Shown here: in pieces, positions 49,660 through 55,492 of the stretch
Layout: each line of letters opens with the position of its first letter
Position numbering within the stretch: the stretch's first letter is position 1
NCBI GenBank assembly: GCA_001790855.1
Contig: MGDH01000042.1
Location: forward strand, 62,001 to 126,000
DNA length: 64,000 bases
Source: Candidatus Schekmanbacteria bacterium RIFCSPLOWO2_02_FULL_38_14
Lineage (GTDB): Bacteria > Schekmanbacteria > GWA2-38-11
Direction: 5' to 3'
The notes under the pieces: model-generated
Database searches by the model: none
What the model was told of the DNA's origin: nothing
What the model saw: the letters and a program-made list of their open reading frames with translations, nothing else
Position numbers and translations under genes: made by a program

Positions 49660-50658
49660 TCAAGACAGGATGGCTTCTCTCAATATCTTTGCTGCATCTT
49701 CTGGTAGTACCGGATTTGCATAAAGCCCTGTTCCCCATTCAAAACCCATCATATCACTGCATCTTGGTATTATTTCCCAGTGCCAGTGATATTCATTCAC
49801 CAATCCGCGCTGAAACGGTGCAGAGTGGAGTACCATGCTGTAGGAAAGATTTCTCAGGGCTTTTTTTATTCCGGTCATAATTTCTTTAAAAATAATTGCC
49901 TGATCCTTTAACACATCATCACTGATTGCACCAAAGTCTGAAACATGCGTTTTAGGAGTAATGCATATTTCAAAAGGAAACTTTGATGCATAAGGACTAA
50001 AAACCAGAAATTTATCAGATTCTTTTATGATTCTCTTGCCTATATTTATCTCCTCATTAATTATATCACAATAAATACATCTCTCTTTGATTTTAAAATA
50101 ATCTATGGAATTGTTCAACTCCTCATCAACTCTCTTAACAACAAATGGCATAGCTAAAATATGGGAATGGGAATGGCTGTAGTGGGTTGTAGGTATGCCG
50201 TGGTTTTTAACAATAATTATATGCTTGAATCTTGTATCCTTTCTTAAATCAAGGGCTCTCTGGCGATATACACCAAGTATAATTTGCAGCTGGTCAATTT
50301 CCAATTCTGTCCAGTCTGCATCGTGCTCAGGAGTTTCAATAACAACTTCATGGGCACCGACAGCGTTCATCATATCATACATTCCATGCCCTCTTTTTTT
50401 TAAATCCCCTTCTATTCTCAACAACGGAAACTTATCAGGAATGACTCTTACTCTCCATTTGCTCCTGCTGTCTTCACTCATAGGGTCTTTCACAGCTAAT
50501 ATTTCAACAGGAGATTTCTCCTCATTTCCAGGGCAAAAAGGGCAAATATGCTTTTCCTCTTCTGTGGTTGTAGTAACATATTCAGATAATTTATTGTTTC
50601 TGTCATCTGAAACAATAACCCATCTTCTTATTATAGGATCTTTGCGAAGCTCAGACAT
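49660..50658 (-). CDS. galT: Galactose-1-phosphate uridylyltransferase family protein
   Basis: 332 residues from ATG 50658, which lies one base after the response-regulator stop. HIT-type GalT fold: the zinc site CPFCPGNE and RCIYCDI, then the nucleotide-transfer segment with YSHSHSHILAMPF, where most GalT enzymes read HPHSQ. The substitution keeps the catalytic histidines. It moves UMP between UDP-glucose and galactose-1-phosphate in the Leloir pathway. No galK or galE is nearby, so a related sugar-1-phosphate may be used. Confidence 0.88.
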   Translation of the reverse strand: MSELRKDPIIRRWVIVSDDRNNKLSEYVTTTTEEEKHICPFCPGNEEKSPVEILAVKDPMSEDSRSKWRVRVIPDKFPLLRIEGDLKKRGHGMYDMMNAVGAHEVVIETPEHDADWTELEIDQLQIILGVYRQRALDLRKDTRFKHIIIVKNHGIPTTHYSHSHSHILAMPFVVKRVDEELNNSIDYFKIKERCIYCDIINEEINIGKRIIKESDKFLVFSPYASKFPFEICITPKTHVSDFGAISDDVLKDQAIIFKEIMTGIKKALRNLSYSMVLHSAPFQRGLVNEYHWHWEIIPRCSDMMGFEWGTGLYANPVLPEDAAKILREAILS

Positions 50659-50659
50659 A

Positions 50660-51061
50660 TCATTTTCTCCCTTCTTCCTTTCTGAAAATTGCCTCAAGAA
50701 GCCTTATCAGTTCTTCATAATTAATGGGTTTATTAATGTAATCATACGCCCCCTTAACAAAAGCATCAAGATAGCTTCCAACCTCACCAAAAGCTGTTAC
50801 AATTATAACCGGAAGTTCCGGGTCTGTTTTTTTTATATTTTTTAAAAGTTTAAGCCCTCCTATTTCAGGCATCCTTAAATCCGTAATAATAACATCATAT
50901 TTGTTGAGCTCCATTTTTTTTATCGCTTCTTTACCATTAAAACATACCACAACCTCATATCCGTCCTCTGAAAGAAGCTTTGATAATGTCTCAACCGCGT
51001 GTTTATCATCATCAACAAGTATGATTCGCTTTCTTACTTTTGATGAATCTGATAAATTCAT
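50660..51061 (-). CDS. Single-domain response regulator
   Basis: 133 residues forming one receiver domain: acidic pair DDDKHA near residue 17, phosphoacceptor Asp in VIITDLRMPEIGG at about 60, and the switch Thr and Lys (VTAFGE; NKPINYEE). It has no output domain. It follows the sensor kinase gene by 36 bases and precedes galT with one base between. It is the likely partner of that kinase, passing signals to a protein outside this window. Confidence 0.92.
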   Translation of the reverse strand: MNLSDSSKVRKRIILVDDDKHAVETLSKLLSEDGYEVVVCFNGKEAIKKMELNKYDVIITDLRMPEIGGLKLLKNIKKTDPELPVIIVTAFGEVGSYLDAFVKGAYDYINKPINYEELIRLLEAIFRKEEGRK

Positions 51062-51097: not shown

Positions 51098-53188
51098 TCA
51101 TGTTTTAACAGGAATTATTATTGTAAAAGTTGTTCCTTTCCCGGGTAGACTTTCAAAACTGATTTTCCCGCTGTGATCCTCAATTATCTTTTGAGCAATT
51201 GATAGCCCGAGCCCTGTTCCTTTCTCCTTTGTGGAATAAAACATATCAAATATATTCTCACCATCTTTTATGCCAATCCCTGTGTCTCTTATCTTCACTA
51301 TAACACCCTCATTATCCAGCAAGGTGCTAACCTCCAGACTCCCGCCTCTTGGCATTGCTTCAAGAGAGTTTGTTATTATGTTAAGAAAAATCTGTTTTAC
51401 TCGTCCTGAGTCCATAGGAATTGAAGGCAGTTCAGTATAATTTTCATTTATTATAACGCCTTTATCTTTTGCTTCAATTTCAATAAGCTTTAAAGTTTCT
51501 TTAAGCACACGATTAATGTCATTCTCAATAAAATTCTTTTTTGAGACTTTTGAAAGGTCAAGAAAATCTTCTGTCAATTTATTAAGCCTGCTTATTTCTT
51601 TTCTGACAATATCTATCAGAATTACGGCCTCATCTTTTATATCTGCATTTATTTTTGAAATCCTTCTCTCAAGCAGGGTTAACTGTAAATTTATTGAGTT
51701 GAGCGGGTTTTTGACCTCATGAGCAAGGGCCGATGCAAAGATGCCGATTAAAGCGAGTTGTTCTGACCTCTCAAGGCGTGTCCTCGTCCTGTGCTGTTCC
51801 GTTGTATCCTTCACATATTCTACTATCTGGACAATTTCACCATTTTCATTTCTGAGAGGGAAGGCCGTTACATCTGCATAGAATTTGCTTCCGTCGTCTC
51901 TCTCCATAATCTCCTCTGAAAACGAAGGGGCTCCCGTTCTTTGTGCAATCTCGACAGGGCATGAAGGGCACTTGCTTTTTCCTTTTTTTAATTCTCTGAA
52001 GCAAACCCCTCCAATAATCTCTTCAGGTGTTTTACTAAACATTTTCGCAAATGCTCTATTGGTATTCATTATAACTAAATTTTTATCAATCAGAGTAATA
52101 CCGTCTGTTATTCCGTCAAAGATAGCCTGGAGTTCTGTCTTGACTCTGAGAATTTCCCTTGAAGATCTCTCCTTCTCTTCAAGGATAACTCTCCTTGTAT
52201 TAATCCTTACAAGCAAAAATGCTCCTGAACTTGAAGAGATTATAATCAAAAAAACCAATATCAATGTATTTACAAGATTAATTTTTAACAATTCCTCAAC
52301 CTCTGAAACAGGCGCAACAACGCCTACGGACCATAAATCATCCCCAATCTGTACAGGCGCATAGGCAATAAAATTTGCATGACTTCCCCTAACTGAATAC
52401 CTCCCGGTTCCCAATTTCCCCTGAACCATCTCTTTTTCTGTAGAAAATGAGCTATGGCAGGAAAAACATTTTTTCTCAGAAGTAAAAATATTTTTATTTA
52501 CCATTTCCGGATGTTTTATATGGCTGAGTAAAATCCCGTTTTTATCAATAAGCCACGCAAATCCATTTTTTCCTGATTTGACTGGGAGTATGTAACGTTT
52601 TATAATTTTTTCTATTTCAACTTCAAGCAACACAGCACCTAAAAATCTTGACTCGCTGTATGATGATGAATCTTTAGAGGATTCGTCCTTATTACTTTTT
52701 AATACCAGAGGAAATATCATAACAATTGCAGGTCCCTTCCTGTTAAAATAATCCATTATAATAAGCGAATGCCCTGTTATTCTGGATTTTATAAAATAAT
52801 TAATTTTGCTGTAATCCCTCTCAGGCTCTCCATATCCGATTTTTGATGAAAAGTACCTGGTTTTCCCCTCTCTGTCCACAACACCCAAAAATCTTACATA
52901 CTCTTTTTCCTGACTATACAACACTTGTATTCTTCCCATAGTCTCTTTTTTCATATCTTTGACAACCTGGTAATTTGAAAAGAGTTCAAGTTTATCAATT
53001 AACTCTGAAAAATAATCTTGAATGTCGCTTGCAACTTCCTTTGCCAGCAATAACTGCTGGTAATTGAACTGGTCTGCAAGGGTATTTTTGCTTGAATAAT
53101 AAATCCTGTAGGCAAAGAAAATAATAATAGATAAAAAGAGTATCAAAATGATAATTAATGAAACTATCTGTTTCTGTGCTTTTTTCAT
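51098..53188 (-). CDS. Sensor histidine kinase with c-type heme motif in the periplasmic domain
   Basis: 696 residues. Transmembrane helices at about 10-30 and 302-325 bracket a Cache-like periplasmic domain that contains CFSCH (residues 241-245), a classic CxxCH heme c site. A PAS domain at about 350-460 carries a cysteine cluster (CPSCP near 408). The HisKA segment is ALAHEVKNPLNSINLQL and the ATPase ends in GTGLGLSIAQKII. It probably senses redox or a heme ligand and phosphorylates the adjacent receiver. It has no HAMP. Confidence 0.92.
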   Translation of the reverse strand: MKKAQKQIVSLIIILILFLSIIIFFAYRIYYSSKNTLADQFNYQQLLLAKEVASDIQDYFSELIDKLELFSNYQVVKDMKKETMGRIQVLYSQEKEYVRFLGVVDREGKTRYFSSKIGYGEPERDYSKINYFIKSRITGHSLIIMDYFNRKGPAIVMIFPLVLKSNKDESSKDSSSYSESRFLGAVLLEVEIEKIIKRYILPVKSGKNGFAWLIDKNGILLSHIKHPEMVNKNIFTSEKKCFSCHSSFSTEKEMVQGKLGTGRYSVRGSHANFIAYAPVQIGDDLWSVGVVAPVSEVEELLKINLVNTLILVFLIIISSSSGAFLLVRINTRRVILEEKERSSREILRVKTELQAIFDGITDGITLIDKNLVIMNTNRAFAKMFSKTPEEIIGGVCFRELKKGKSKCPSCPVEIAQRTGAPSFSEEIMERDDGSKFYADVTAFPLRNENGEIVQIVEYVKDTTEQHRTRTRLERSEQLALIGIFASALAHEVKNPLNSINLQLTLLERRISKINADIKDEAVILIDIVRKEISRLNKLTEDFLDLSKVSKKNFIENDINRVLKETLKLIEIEAKDKGVIINENYTELPSIPMDSGRVKQIFLNIITNSLEAMPRGGSLEVSTLLDNEGVIVKIRDTGIGIKDGENIFDMFYSTKEKGTGLGLSIAQKIIEDHSGKISFESLPGKGTTFTIIIPVKT

Positions 53189-53327: not shown

Positions 53328-53690
53328 ATGATGGGTTCAAAGAGTTTATTAAAAGTAATGGTCGTCCTCATAGCTTCTTCTCTACTTTTCACTGGGTGCG
53401 CTTGGCGTGCTGAGTGTTTAAAGGCAAGAGATGAAGCTGTAAAAGCATCTCAGGATTCACAGGCTGCGCTTCAGGAAGCAAAAAGTACCGCAGCAAAAGT
53501 AGAGGGAGCAACTGGAAAAGCTGAAGCTGCTGCAAGCAAAACAGACGCTGCTGCTGCCAAATGCGATGGAGTAGACGCTGCTGCAAGCAAAGCAGACGCT
53601 GCTGCTGCCAGAGCTGAAGAAGCTTCTAATAAGGCAACAGCCGCTGCAGAAAAAGCTGAGGCTATCTTCAACAAGATAATTAAAAAATAA
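53328..53690 (+). CDS. Alanine-rich coiled-coil lipoprotein (Lpp/OprI-like)
   Basis: 120 residues. The lipobox LLFTGC at residues 18-23 marks a lipoprotein. The mature part is a low-complexity heptad-like string of Ala with Lys/Glu/Asp (KAEAAASKTDAAAAK and so on), as in alanine-zipper outer-membrane lipoproteins. It has a very strong AAGGAGGTGATTT ribosome site and a perfect terminator after it, so it is likely to be abundant. An outer-membrane-to-wall linker is possible. The neighbouring L,D-transpeptidase genes would fit. Confidence 0.85.
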   Translation: MMGSKSLLKVMVVLIASSLLFTGCAWRAECLKARDEAVKASQDSQAALQEAKSTAAKVEGATGKAEAAASKTDAAAAKCDGVDAAASKADAAAARAEEASNKATAAAEKAEAIFNKIIKK

Positions 53691-53704: not shown

Positions 53705-53750
53705 AAGCGCAAAGCCTTTACAATGTTCTGGCTTTGCGCTTATTTTTTTT
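53705..53750. terminator. Bidirectional intrinsic terminator
   Basis: A 12-bp perfect stem (AAGCGCAAAGCC with GGCTTTGCGCTT, loop 13) is followed by ATTTTTTTT on the plus strand. The minus strand also has a short T tract. It ends the lipoprotein gene and the convergent L,D-transpeptidase gene, whose stop overlaps it. Confidence 0.92.
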
Positions 53751-54687
53751 CACTTGTTGTGGCAGGAACAACAGATATGCAAACAGGCAAACCGCTTTTT
53801 TCTTCCAAAGCTGATTTAATTTTTTCAATATCAACCTTATCAATGTAACCTAATTTCCCTAATAAGCTGATTGTTTCTTTCACAGGATTCTTCACCACAC
53901 CATAAATATCATTATATACTTCAATATAGAGTTTATTATTTTTAATTCCAATTTTTACGGGCTGGTATAATATTTCAACTGTTGTTCCGACATTAGCTAT
54001 TCTGTAAAAAAACTCCATATCCTCAGGATACAATCTTATACAACCATGCGTAGTAAGCCTTCCAATTGACCAGGGGGAGTTTGTTCCGTGAATTCCGTAC
54101 CCCCTTGAAAGTGAAAGAAAGTATTTTCCTAGAGGATTATCAGGTCCCGGAGGAACAACTGTTTTAGGTTCCTCCATTGTACTTCTGATTGATTTCGGAA
54201 CATACCATGTCGGGTTTTCTTTTTTTCCTGTTACTTTAAATTTTCCTTTGGGAGTCTGCCAGTCCTCCATTCCCAAACCAATTGGAAATGTATATAAAGA
54301 ATTTGTCTTTGGAATGAAATAATAAAGCCTCATTTCAGGTATGTTTATCACTATCCCCTTGAAACTGCACTCAGGCAAAATCCATTCACTTGGAATTACC
54401 AAGATTTCATCTTCTGGCGGTATCCAAGGGTCTACTCCGCTGTTACAAATCTTAAGCTCAGCAAACCCCAGACTAAAACTTCTGGCAATATCAAGCAACG
54501 TGTCTGTCTTCCTAATTTTATATACCTTAATTTCTCCAATCATAGGCGTTGGAAACTTTGTTAAATTATTTTTAATCTTCTGGTTATAATAATATAACCC
54601 TTTTGAATCTGCTGAAAATCCTGGTTCAGCAAAAAGTAGGATTAAAAATACCAAAAAAACAGATATTTTTTTAAAGCACTCAGTCAT
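53740..54687 (-). CDS. LysM-containing L,D-transpeptidase (YkuD family)
   Basis: 315 residues. A signal peptide (about 8-26) is followed by a LysM domain at about 48-98 (KTDTLLDIARSFSLGFAEL) and the YkuD catalytic domain at about 110-245 with HGTNSPWSIGRLTTHGCIRL, which includes the catalytic Cys. The tail is an unassigned helical region. It makes 3-3 cross-links or attaches lipoproteins to peptidoglycan in the periplasm. It is divergent from the second L,D-transpeptidase gene. Confidence 0.93.
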   Translation of the reverse strand: MTECFKKISVFLVFLILLFAEPGFSADSKGLYYYNQKIKNNLTKFPTPMIGEIKVYKIRKTDTLLDIARSFSLGFAELKICNSGVDPWIPPEDEILVIPSEWILPECSFKGIVINIPEMRLYYFIPKTNSLYTFPIGLGMEDWQTPKGKFKVTGKKENPTWYVPKSIRSTMEEPKTVVPPGPDNPLGKYFLSLSRGYGIHGTNSPWSIGRLTTHGCIRLYPEDMEFFYRIANVGTTVEILYQPVKIGIKNNKLYIEVYNDIYGVVKNPVKETISLLGKLGYIDKVDIEKIKSALEEKSGLPVCISVVPATTSEKK

Positions 54688-54760
54688 TTTCTCTTGTCCT
54701 CTCTAAATATTTTTTATATTATGCATGAATATTCTTCAAAATAAATTTCAAGAAAGATTT

Positions 54761-55492
54761 ATGAAAACTGTTTACATCATGAAATATTTTAAAACGACTT
54801 TTTCTGTTTTGTTTATCATGTCTCTTTTTTCATTTTCTTCAAACCACCTTAAGATTGCCCAGGCAGATGAAGCATTAAAATTTCAGAATAACATAAAAGA
54901 TAAGGAAAGACAAAGAATAGAATCTGATATCTCCGTTAAAAGCAATATTTCATCTGCCTTAATAGTAAAACAATTTTTGAGAAAAATCTCAATAGAAGAA
55001 AGCAAAGAAGACATAAAAATCGTAGTTTATAAATCAAATAAATTAATTGAGGTTTATAAAAACGGCAATTTGAATTTCTCTCAAAATATTCTTTTAAGTC
55101 CTTTCTGGCGCGAGAAAAAAGAGATGCGTGGCGATAAAAAAACCCCTGAGGGAAAATACTATGTCTGCTGTAAAAAAAATAAAAGCAAATACAACTATTT
55201 TATTGGAATCAGTTATCCCAATGACCTTGATGCGCTTTATGCGCTGAAGAAAGACCTTATTTCTGTCAAAGAATTTATTTCAATTGATAAGGCAATAAAA
55301 GAGAGAAAGAAACCTCCTTGGAATACAAAACTTGGAGGCTACATAGGAATTCACGGGACAGGGAAAGATAAAGAATTTGAATCAAAGTGGAAAATAAACT
55401 GGACAGACGGCTGCATTGCCATCAGTGATGATGCCATGGAAAAGGTTTACAATATTGTGGAAATCGGAACCCCTGTAATGATTCTGCCATAA
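54761..55492 (+). CDS. L,D-transpeptidase (YkuD family), no LysM
   Basis: 243 residues from ATG 54761, taken because AGAAAG lies upstream and the next residues form a signal peptide (MKYFKTTFSVLFIMSLFSFS). A start twelve codons earlier is possible. The YkuD domain is C-terminal: GYIGIHGTG and NWTDGCIAISDDAM with the catalytic Cys. The catalytic segment lacks the usual Arg after the Cys-Ile (CIAIS in place of CIRL), a common variant in ErfK-like proteins. Divergent from the LysM-type enzyme. Confidence 0.88.
   Translation: MKTVYIMKYFKTTFSVLFIMSLFSFSSNHLKIAQADEALKFQNNIKDKERQRIESDISVKSNISSALIVKQFLRKISIEESKEDIKIVVYKSNKLIEVYKNGNLNFSQNILLSPFWREKKEMRGDKKTPEGKYYVCCKKNKSKYNYFIGISYPNDLDALYALKKDLISVKEFISIDKAIKERKKPPWNTKLGGYIGIHGTGKDKEFESKWKINWTDGCIAISDDAMEKVYNIVEIGTPVMILP

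Follow-up and report, generated by a model that had tools for sequence, protein, structure and literature searches.

A sensor histidine kinase from a Schekmanbacteria genome with a putative covalent haem c site in its periplasmic dCache domain

What might a histidine kinase sense if its sensor domain contains a CXXCH motif, the putative site of a covalently attached haem c? Such a kinase is encoded in the 64,000-nucleotide stretch of Candidatus Schekmanbacteria bacterium DNA analysed here (the window). We propose that it is a periplasmic haem c sensor of a type we call dCache_heme, in which haem would be held by Cys241 and Cys244, ligated by His245 and Met229, and would act as a switch for redox state or for NO or CO. 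We regard this reading as likely, and we infer haem attachment, ligand and output alike. The features of the kinase and of its neighbouring receiver are as follows.

51098..53188, minus strand: sensor histidine kinase of 696 amino acids with an ATG start, in the order TM1, dCache with CXXCH, TM2, PAS, HisKA, HATPase_c
53108..53167, minus strand: TM1, about residues 8-27 (hydropathy)
52316..53086, minus strand: predicted periplasmic dCache sensor, residues 35-291 (Pfam dCache_1, E 1.6e-18; AlphaFold2 model)
52502..52504, minus strand: Met229 of an HPEM sequence, lying 12 residues upstream of Cys241 and proposed as distal axial ligand (conservation)
52454..52468, minus strand: CFSCH, residues 241-245, within the membrane-proximal Cache module; putative site of covalent haem c attachment (sequence, conservation)
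52205..52294, minus strand: TM2, about residues 299-328 (hydropathy)
51788..52120, minus strand: cytoplasmic PAS domain, about residues 352-467 (coordinates for residues 357-467), with C396, C407 and C410 (Pfam)
51545..51739, minus strand: HisKA, residues 484-548, with phospho-acceptor His490 (Pfam)
51104..51412, minus strand: HATPase_c, residues 593-695 (Pfam)
50660..51061, minus strand: lone receiver of 133 amino acids without an output domain, 36 nt downstream of the kinase (Pfam Response_reg, E 6.6e-31)

The kinase matched the dCache_1 profile (PF02743) with 67.6 bits against a gathering cut-off of 45, over residues 35-291 and across the whole profile. HisKA and HATPase_c were both matched, and the H, N, G1 and G2 boxes were all found. 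CFSCH is the single C..CH in the protein, and when the non-overlapping ORFs of 80 amino acids or more in the window (55 in all) were compared, the kinase alone contained such a motif, which arose in 57 of 200000 shuffles of the protein. Hydrophobic segments flank the motif on both sides (19-residue windows starting at 3-15 and 297-312). Since the N-terminus is basic (MKKAQKQ) and the second segment is followed by the basic RINTRR, the part of the kinase between the segments is predicted to be periplasmic. A preliminary description of this DNA had assigned CFSCH to the periplasmic part and had named a cytoplasmic location as one finding that would speak against a haem; the motif lies between the two predicted membrane helices, which bears out the assignment, and the cytoplasmic location was not seen. 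Its suggestion that c-type haem attachment is possible is supported by this predicted export of the domain and by retention of the motif in homologues. The PAS domain, described there as cysteine-rich, does contain three cysteines, arranged as C-x10-C-x2-C-P (window 51959-52003, minus strand). The same arrangement occurs in a paralogue on contig C36 of the window genome and in loci L017, L021, L022 and L023, and a regular expression found it in 1 of 69 kinases of the phylum of genome G263. C396, C407 and C410 may form a cytoplasmic metal or iron-sulfur site.

Conservation of CXXCH and of an axial His in homologues had been set beforehand as a check, with homologues lacking the Cys or His as the other adverse finding. 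Eleven of 60 genomes searched, the window genome (G000) included, gave a match; CXXCH together with an upstream HPEMV or a variant of it was found in the genomes that share its family and order, as well as in G004, and the other matches were plain dCache domains without CXXCH. Three copies are present in the window genome: besides the window gene there is one on C36 and another on C5. When 386 genomes were searched with a profile, 23 matched at E <= 1e-8, among which the CXXCH members lay in 8 genomes with E <= 1.7e-31; all other matches were at 3.8e-16 or worse, and CXXCH was absent from the matched stretch. A scan of GTDB with one narrow peptide pattern gave six loci, two each from Schekmanbacteria, KSB1 and unclassified bacteria.

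The earlier profiles contained the motif. We therefore built a motif-blind profile from 195-198-residue stretches of 12 sensors, ending 17 residues before the first Cys, and searched 295 genomes of the G263 phylum, a phylum other than that of the window genome. Every one of the 78 places (71 genomes) that scored above the first plain dCache kinase kept CXXCH with a Met at -12, and loss of the Cys or His, the second adverse finding, was not seen among them. For 77 of these E was 7.7e-41 or lower, and the 78th (G614) had an E of 5.9e-29, near that of the best plain dCache kinase (7.1e-26). Thirty-one places scored lower than the 78, and CXXCH was present in the sensor in none of the 18 examined. 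One of the 78, region L156 (G408), is absent from ORF-based counts due to an overlapping reverse ORF; its kinase keeps CFQCH.

In an alignment of 83 CXXCH sensors, C241, C244, H245 and Gly218 were each found in 83/83, Trp212 and Phe248 in 82/83, Met229 in 81/83, Glu251 in 79/83 and His223 in 77/83. Columns kept at 85% or more numbered 33, of which 26 lie from residue 206 on, and the distal Cache module was weakly conserved. No Cys column besides C241 and C244 reached 40% and His223 was the sole other well-kept His, so that a zinc site is not suggested. Invariance across the 83 sensors, the 78 of 78 places of the motif-blind search and the shuffling result together rule out a chance occurrence of CXXCH.

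We compared the Met229 column with that of plain dCache homologues, 38 of 39 of which aligned (near-duplicates included; L014 and L047 are one protein). The column held Phe in 25, Leu in 5, other residues in 8 and Met in none. With Met in 81/83 CXXCH sensors and 0/38 plain homologues, Met229 is, on the evidence of the alignment, a residue gained together with CXXCH, as expected for a distal ligand. Two CXXCH kinases (G100 and G366) have Ser at this position. Haem c would probably be ligated by His245 and Met229. His223 is nearly as well kept and could be the ligand instead, although it is missing in six CXXCH sensors and common in plain dCache homologues. His226 of HPEM is disfavoured, since in the G263 phylum its place is mostly taken by a different residue, usually Gln, while CXXCH is retained.

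An AlphaFold2 model of residues 28-300 (seven sequences; pLDDT 79.3, pTM 0.80) had a two-module dCache fold behind a long N-terminal helix. It matched the sensor of Tlp1 (4wy9) with a VIA Z of 21.9 and an rmsd of 2.9 over 243 residues, followed by 9kpj (VIA Z 21.6) and 5wbf (VIA Z 20.8), and it matched 3lid in Foldseek at 2.5e-11. In this cofactor-free model the CXXCH segment is predicted to be a short helix (model 212-217) of the membrane-proximal module, between strands 192-195 and 233-237, and three strands (233-237, 245-254 and 257-266) come after it.

The Geobacter haem c chemoreceptors named as precedents in the preliminary description belong to PF11845, the sCache_heme family (PMC12889525). 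PF11845 did not match the kinase among families up to E 0.1, nor any protein of its own genome at E 0.001, and PF11845 structures were absent among the VIA matches listed for the model, an absence that excludes nothing. Alignment of the dCache_heme and PF11845 profiles gave an hhalign probability of 16%, with the aligned region lying around the motif itself. In PF11845 members from G002, G003, G008 and G009 and in Tll0287 (5b82), CXXCH comes after the apparent penultimate strand, with one strand following, and for sCache_heme PMC12889525 places CXXCH between b3 and b4. Membership of the kinase in PF11845 was rejected on the missing profile match, the low hhalign probability and the other motif position; the Geobacter chemoreceptors therefore stand as precedents in function and not as close kin. 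From positions compared by sequence and model we infer that CXXCH was inserted by separate events in dCache_heme and sCache_heme. A 361-residue ORF of G008 (L065/L066) contains two tandem PF11845 domains with a CXXCH in each.

The distribution of the motif was then mapped on a tree of 120 sensors, which took in 37 plain rows (L047 was dropped as a duplicate of L014). The haem label needed 3 changes as compared with 31.8 for shuffled labels, and none of 500 shuffles was as low. A single change sufficed in 22% of bootstrap trees, and the sequences are compatible with one origin of the haem dCache. On its long branch the window sequence came closest to a kinase of G002, with some uncertainty as to its exact position. 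A broader scenario can be offered only tentatively, at somewhat less than even odds: covalent haem c would have been acquired twice in the Cache superfamily, once in sCache_heme and once independently, elsewhere in the fold, giving widespread dCache_heme kinases whose His/Met redox switch is reduced by adjacent periplasmic multihaem cytochrome chains and regulates them via sigma-54 activators.

Attachment of haem to an exported domain would call for a maturation system. The window genome has three strong CcsA-like (PF01578) and three ResB (PF05140) loci, with adjacent pairs on C33 and C21. G002, a genome of the same order that is 98% complete, gave no PF01578 or PF05140 match. It encodes four dCache-CXXCH kinases and one PF11845 protein and gave 29 Paired_CXXCH_1 matches, so that haem attachment is expected there; this suggests that the missing CcsA and ResB matches reflect a missed gene or an assembly gap. 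PF01578 was present in 293 of the 295 genomes of the G263 phylum, and co-occurrence with maturation genes was set aside as evidence because it offers no contrast.

We examined the genes around dCache-CXXCH kinases of the G263 phylum. Once regions truncated at a contig end had been set aside, an NtrC-type activator was encoded downstream in 58 of 66, and an ORF with at least four CXXCH was present in 28 of 69 regions and missing from the other 41. Such multihaem ORFs occurred in 3 of 60 evenly spaced 15-kb control regions, taken from three single-contig genomes, and in none of 20 plain dCache kinase regions; for kinase regions of at least 13 kb the count was 19 of 46. The Fisher p for the enrichment was 1.1e-6, and since the genomes are related and independence is overstated, the p-values (1.1e-6, 5.4e-6) serve as a guide only. 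A module of a 7-haem protein, cytochrome b561 and a 9-haem protein recurs near the relatives. In the window genome itself, a sigma-54 NtrC-type activator comes directly after the C36 paralogue, and 11-haem ORFs and cytochrome b561 lie within about 5 kb; at a distance of roughly 13 to 20 kb there are a Rieske/cytochrome b set and, with NrfD, a molybdopterin oxidoreductase. No multihaem gene is found near the window kinase within the 64 kb.

Some further arrangements were seen. Two genomes encode, about 10 kb from a dCache-CXXCH kinase, a protein of 600-604 amino acids in which a receiver is joined to a membrane anchor of the NapC/NirT type with 11 CXXCH (L103:12183-13997, on G000 C36, and L106:3200-5002, on G002 C10); it is possibly a multihaem quinol dehydrogenase under phosphorylation control. 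Among the plain dCache kinases L163-L182 of the G263 phylum, a regular expression found a lone receiver of about 140 amino acids downstream of the kinase in 11 of 20, and the order of kinase and receiver in the window is the same as in these kinases, which are without the haem motif. Upstream of the window kinase, a small lipoprotein-like ORF with alanine-rich repeats (53328-53690, plus strand) diverges from it, and two adjacent divergent genes (53740-54687, minus strand, and 54725-55492, plus strand) encode proteins with HGT and GCI motifs, which we take to be L,D-transpeptidases.

The lone receiver, which had been suggested as the partner of the kinase, does consist of a receiver domain only, and it is the probable partner. 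Its stop codon (50660-50662) and the galT ATG (50656-50658), read directly, are separated by one base, as had been reported. Such translational coupling could mean that the kinase-receiver pair controls galT or sugar metabolism. The best galT homologues in G002 and G003 (50% and 47% identical) keep their downstream neighbours, two genes that we take to encode archease and RtcB, and have another gene upstream, with neither kinase nor receiver there; among four genomes checked, the pair adjoins galT in that of the window only. The one-base gap thus stands and the link is not conserved, and the coupling was rejected as an indication of function. On this gene order the pair is a local neighbour of galT and not a conserved partner, and control of galT is scarcely credible.

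The remaining alternatives concern the sensor. If the haem c mainly bound NO (or CO), with redox secondary, the kinase would be a periplasmic gas sensor. The signalling sCache_heme of P. azotoformans is reported to bind NO tightly (PMC12889525), and the Geobacter domains bind both NO and CO with displacement of Met60 (PMC8396549). However, the domain family and the insertion site differ from those of sCache_heme, the nearly fixed Met (81/83) suggests a six-coordinate resting haem, and the recurring neighbours are electron-transfer genes; we hold a sensor mainly for gas to be unlikely. A second alternative places the signal in the other half of the domain. dCache domains often bind ligands in the membrane-distal module, and the model shows both modules, so the distal one may still bind a small organic ligand while the proximal haem is structural or secondary. 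Conservation, however, peaks at the haem segment (26 of 33 columns from residue 206 on) and the distal module is poorly kept, making this quite unlikely. The cysteines might also act without haem, as CXXC pairs in general can serve as a thiol-disulfide switch or as a metal site, here of zinc or iron, and G002 has four copies of the kinase with no CcsA or ResB detected. Against this, the His after CXXC is invariant (83/83), no other Cys is conserved, Met appears with the motif, and the wealth of multihaem motifs in G002 leads one to expect haem attachment there in any case. We consider a haem-free site highly unlikely.

The haem c sensor remains the favoured reading, and it may be pictured as follows. 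After export, the CcsA/ResB machinery would attach haem to Cys241 and Cys244. In the reduced state His245 would be the proximal and Met229 the distal ligand, and Met229 would be freed when the iron is oxidised or when NO or CO binds. The resulting change in the proximal Cache module, which lies beside TM2, would cross the membrane, reach the kinase by way of the PAS linker and alter phosphorylation of His490 and of the receiver. A redox or gas switch is proposed by analogy with GSU0935 and GSU0582, an analogy of mechanism and not of family. According to a review (PMC8396549), Met binds the reduced haem of these two domains and leaves the oxidised haem, NO and CO displace the axial Met (Met60), and the potentials are -251 and -156 mV. 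By this analogy, what the dCache_heme kinase reports is probably the redox state of the periplasm or NO/CO. Its relatives would mostly have the receiver as part of a sigma-54 activator of the NtrC type, and multihaem and b-type cytochrome genes often lie nearby; given this setting, these relatives probably serve as a rule to match the expression of respiratory genes to the redox state of the periplasm. The receiver in the window has no output domain, and the output of the window copy would therefore be indirect.

A 2026 preprint presents sCache_heme as the first Cache domain known to bind a cofactor covalently and regards ordinary Cache domains as cofactor-free ligand binders (PMC12889525). 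In the text examined it describes no dCache family, and the word 'dCache' occurs once outside the references, applied to the P. azotoformans protein studied there. Kinases with a haem motif are not in themselves new, since a review (PMC8396549) lists 12 signal transducers of Geobacter that have CX2-4CH motifs, and eight of these are two-component proteins. Searching PDB sequences with the profile of the family gave only weak dCache and cytochrome c554 matches, and no description of a dCache domain with haem c was found in a literature search outside which most subscription papers lay. What appears new is a dCache family with its own insertion site, a nearly fixed Met and a characteristic genomic setting, although some of the Geobacter CX2-4CH transducers may be of the same kind. 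Should dCache_heme also carry haem c, haem would have been added to the extracellular Cache sensors, a large class in bacteria, on more than one occasion and at different positions. In bacteria with many multihaem cytochromes, the family would then be a direct candidate for the means by which the redox state of the periplasm is sensed and respiratory genes are adjusted to it.

Among known systems, the sCache_heme, Tll0287-like or DUF3365 proteins (PF11845; GSU0582, GSU0935, Tll0287 and the P. azotoformans protein) resemble the window kinase in being periplasmic sensors of the Cache superfamily with CXXCH. They are often fused to kinases or chemoreceptors, may have Met or Cys as distal ligand, and have been proposed to sense redox state or NO (PMC12889525, PMC8396549). 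They differ in having a single Cache module with one strand after CXXCH, whereas the window kinase has a dCache domain with three. DcrA of Desulfovibrio vulgaris, by its description, shares haem c-based periplasmic sensing of redox or oxygen (PMC8396549), but is a chemoreceptor. AtoS gave the best score for the PAS-HisKA-HATPase half of the window kinase, which was under the curated cut-off of every NCBIfam model among the matches listed. Like the AtoS/ZraS two-component systems, the dCache-CXXCH relatives pair with NtrC-type sigma-54 activators, but the sensor domain of the window kinase is another one. Ordinary dCache_1 (PF02743) kinases and chemoreceptors such as Tlp1, TlpA, TlpC and vpHK1S-Z8 have the same fold; unlike the dCache_heme sensors, all 38 plain homologues checked lack both CXXCH and the Met.
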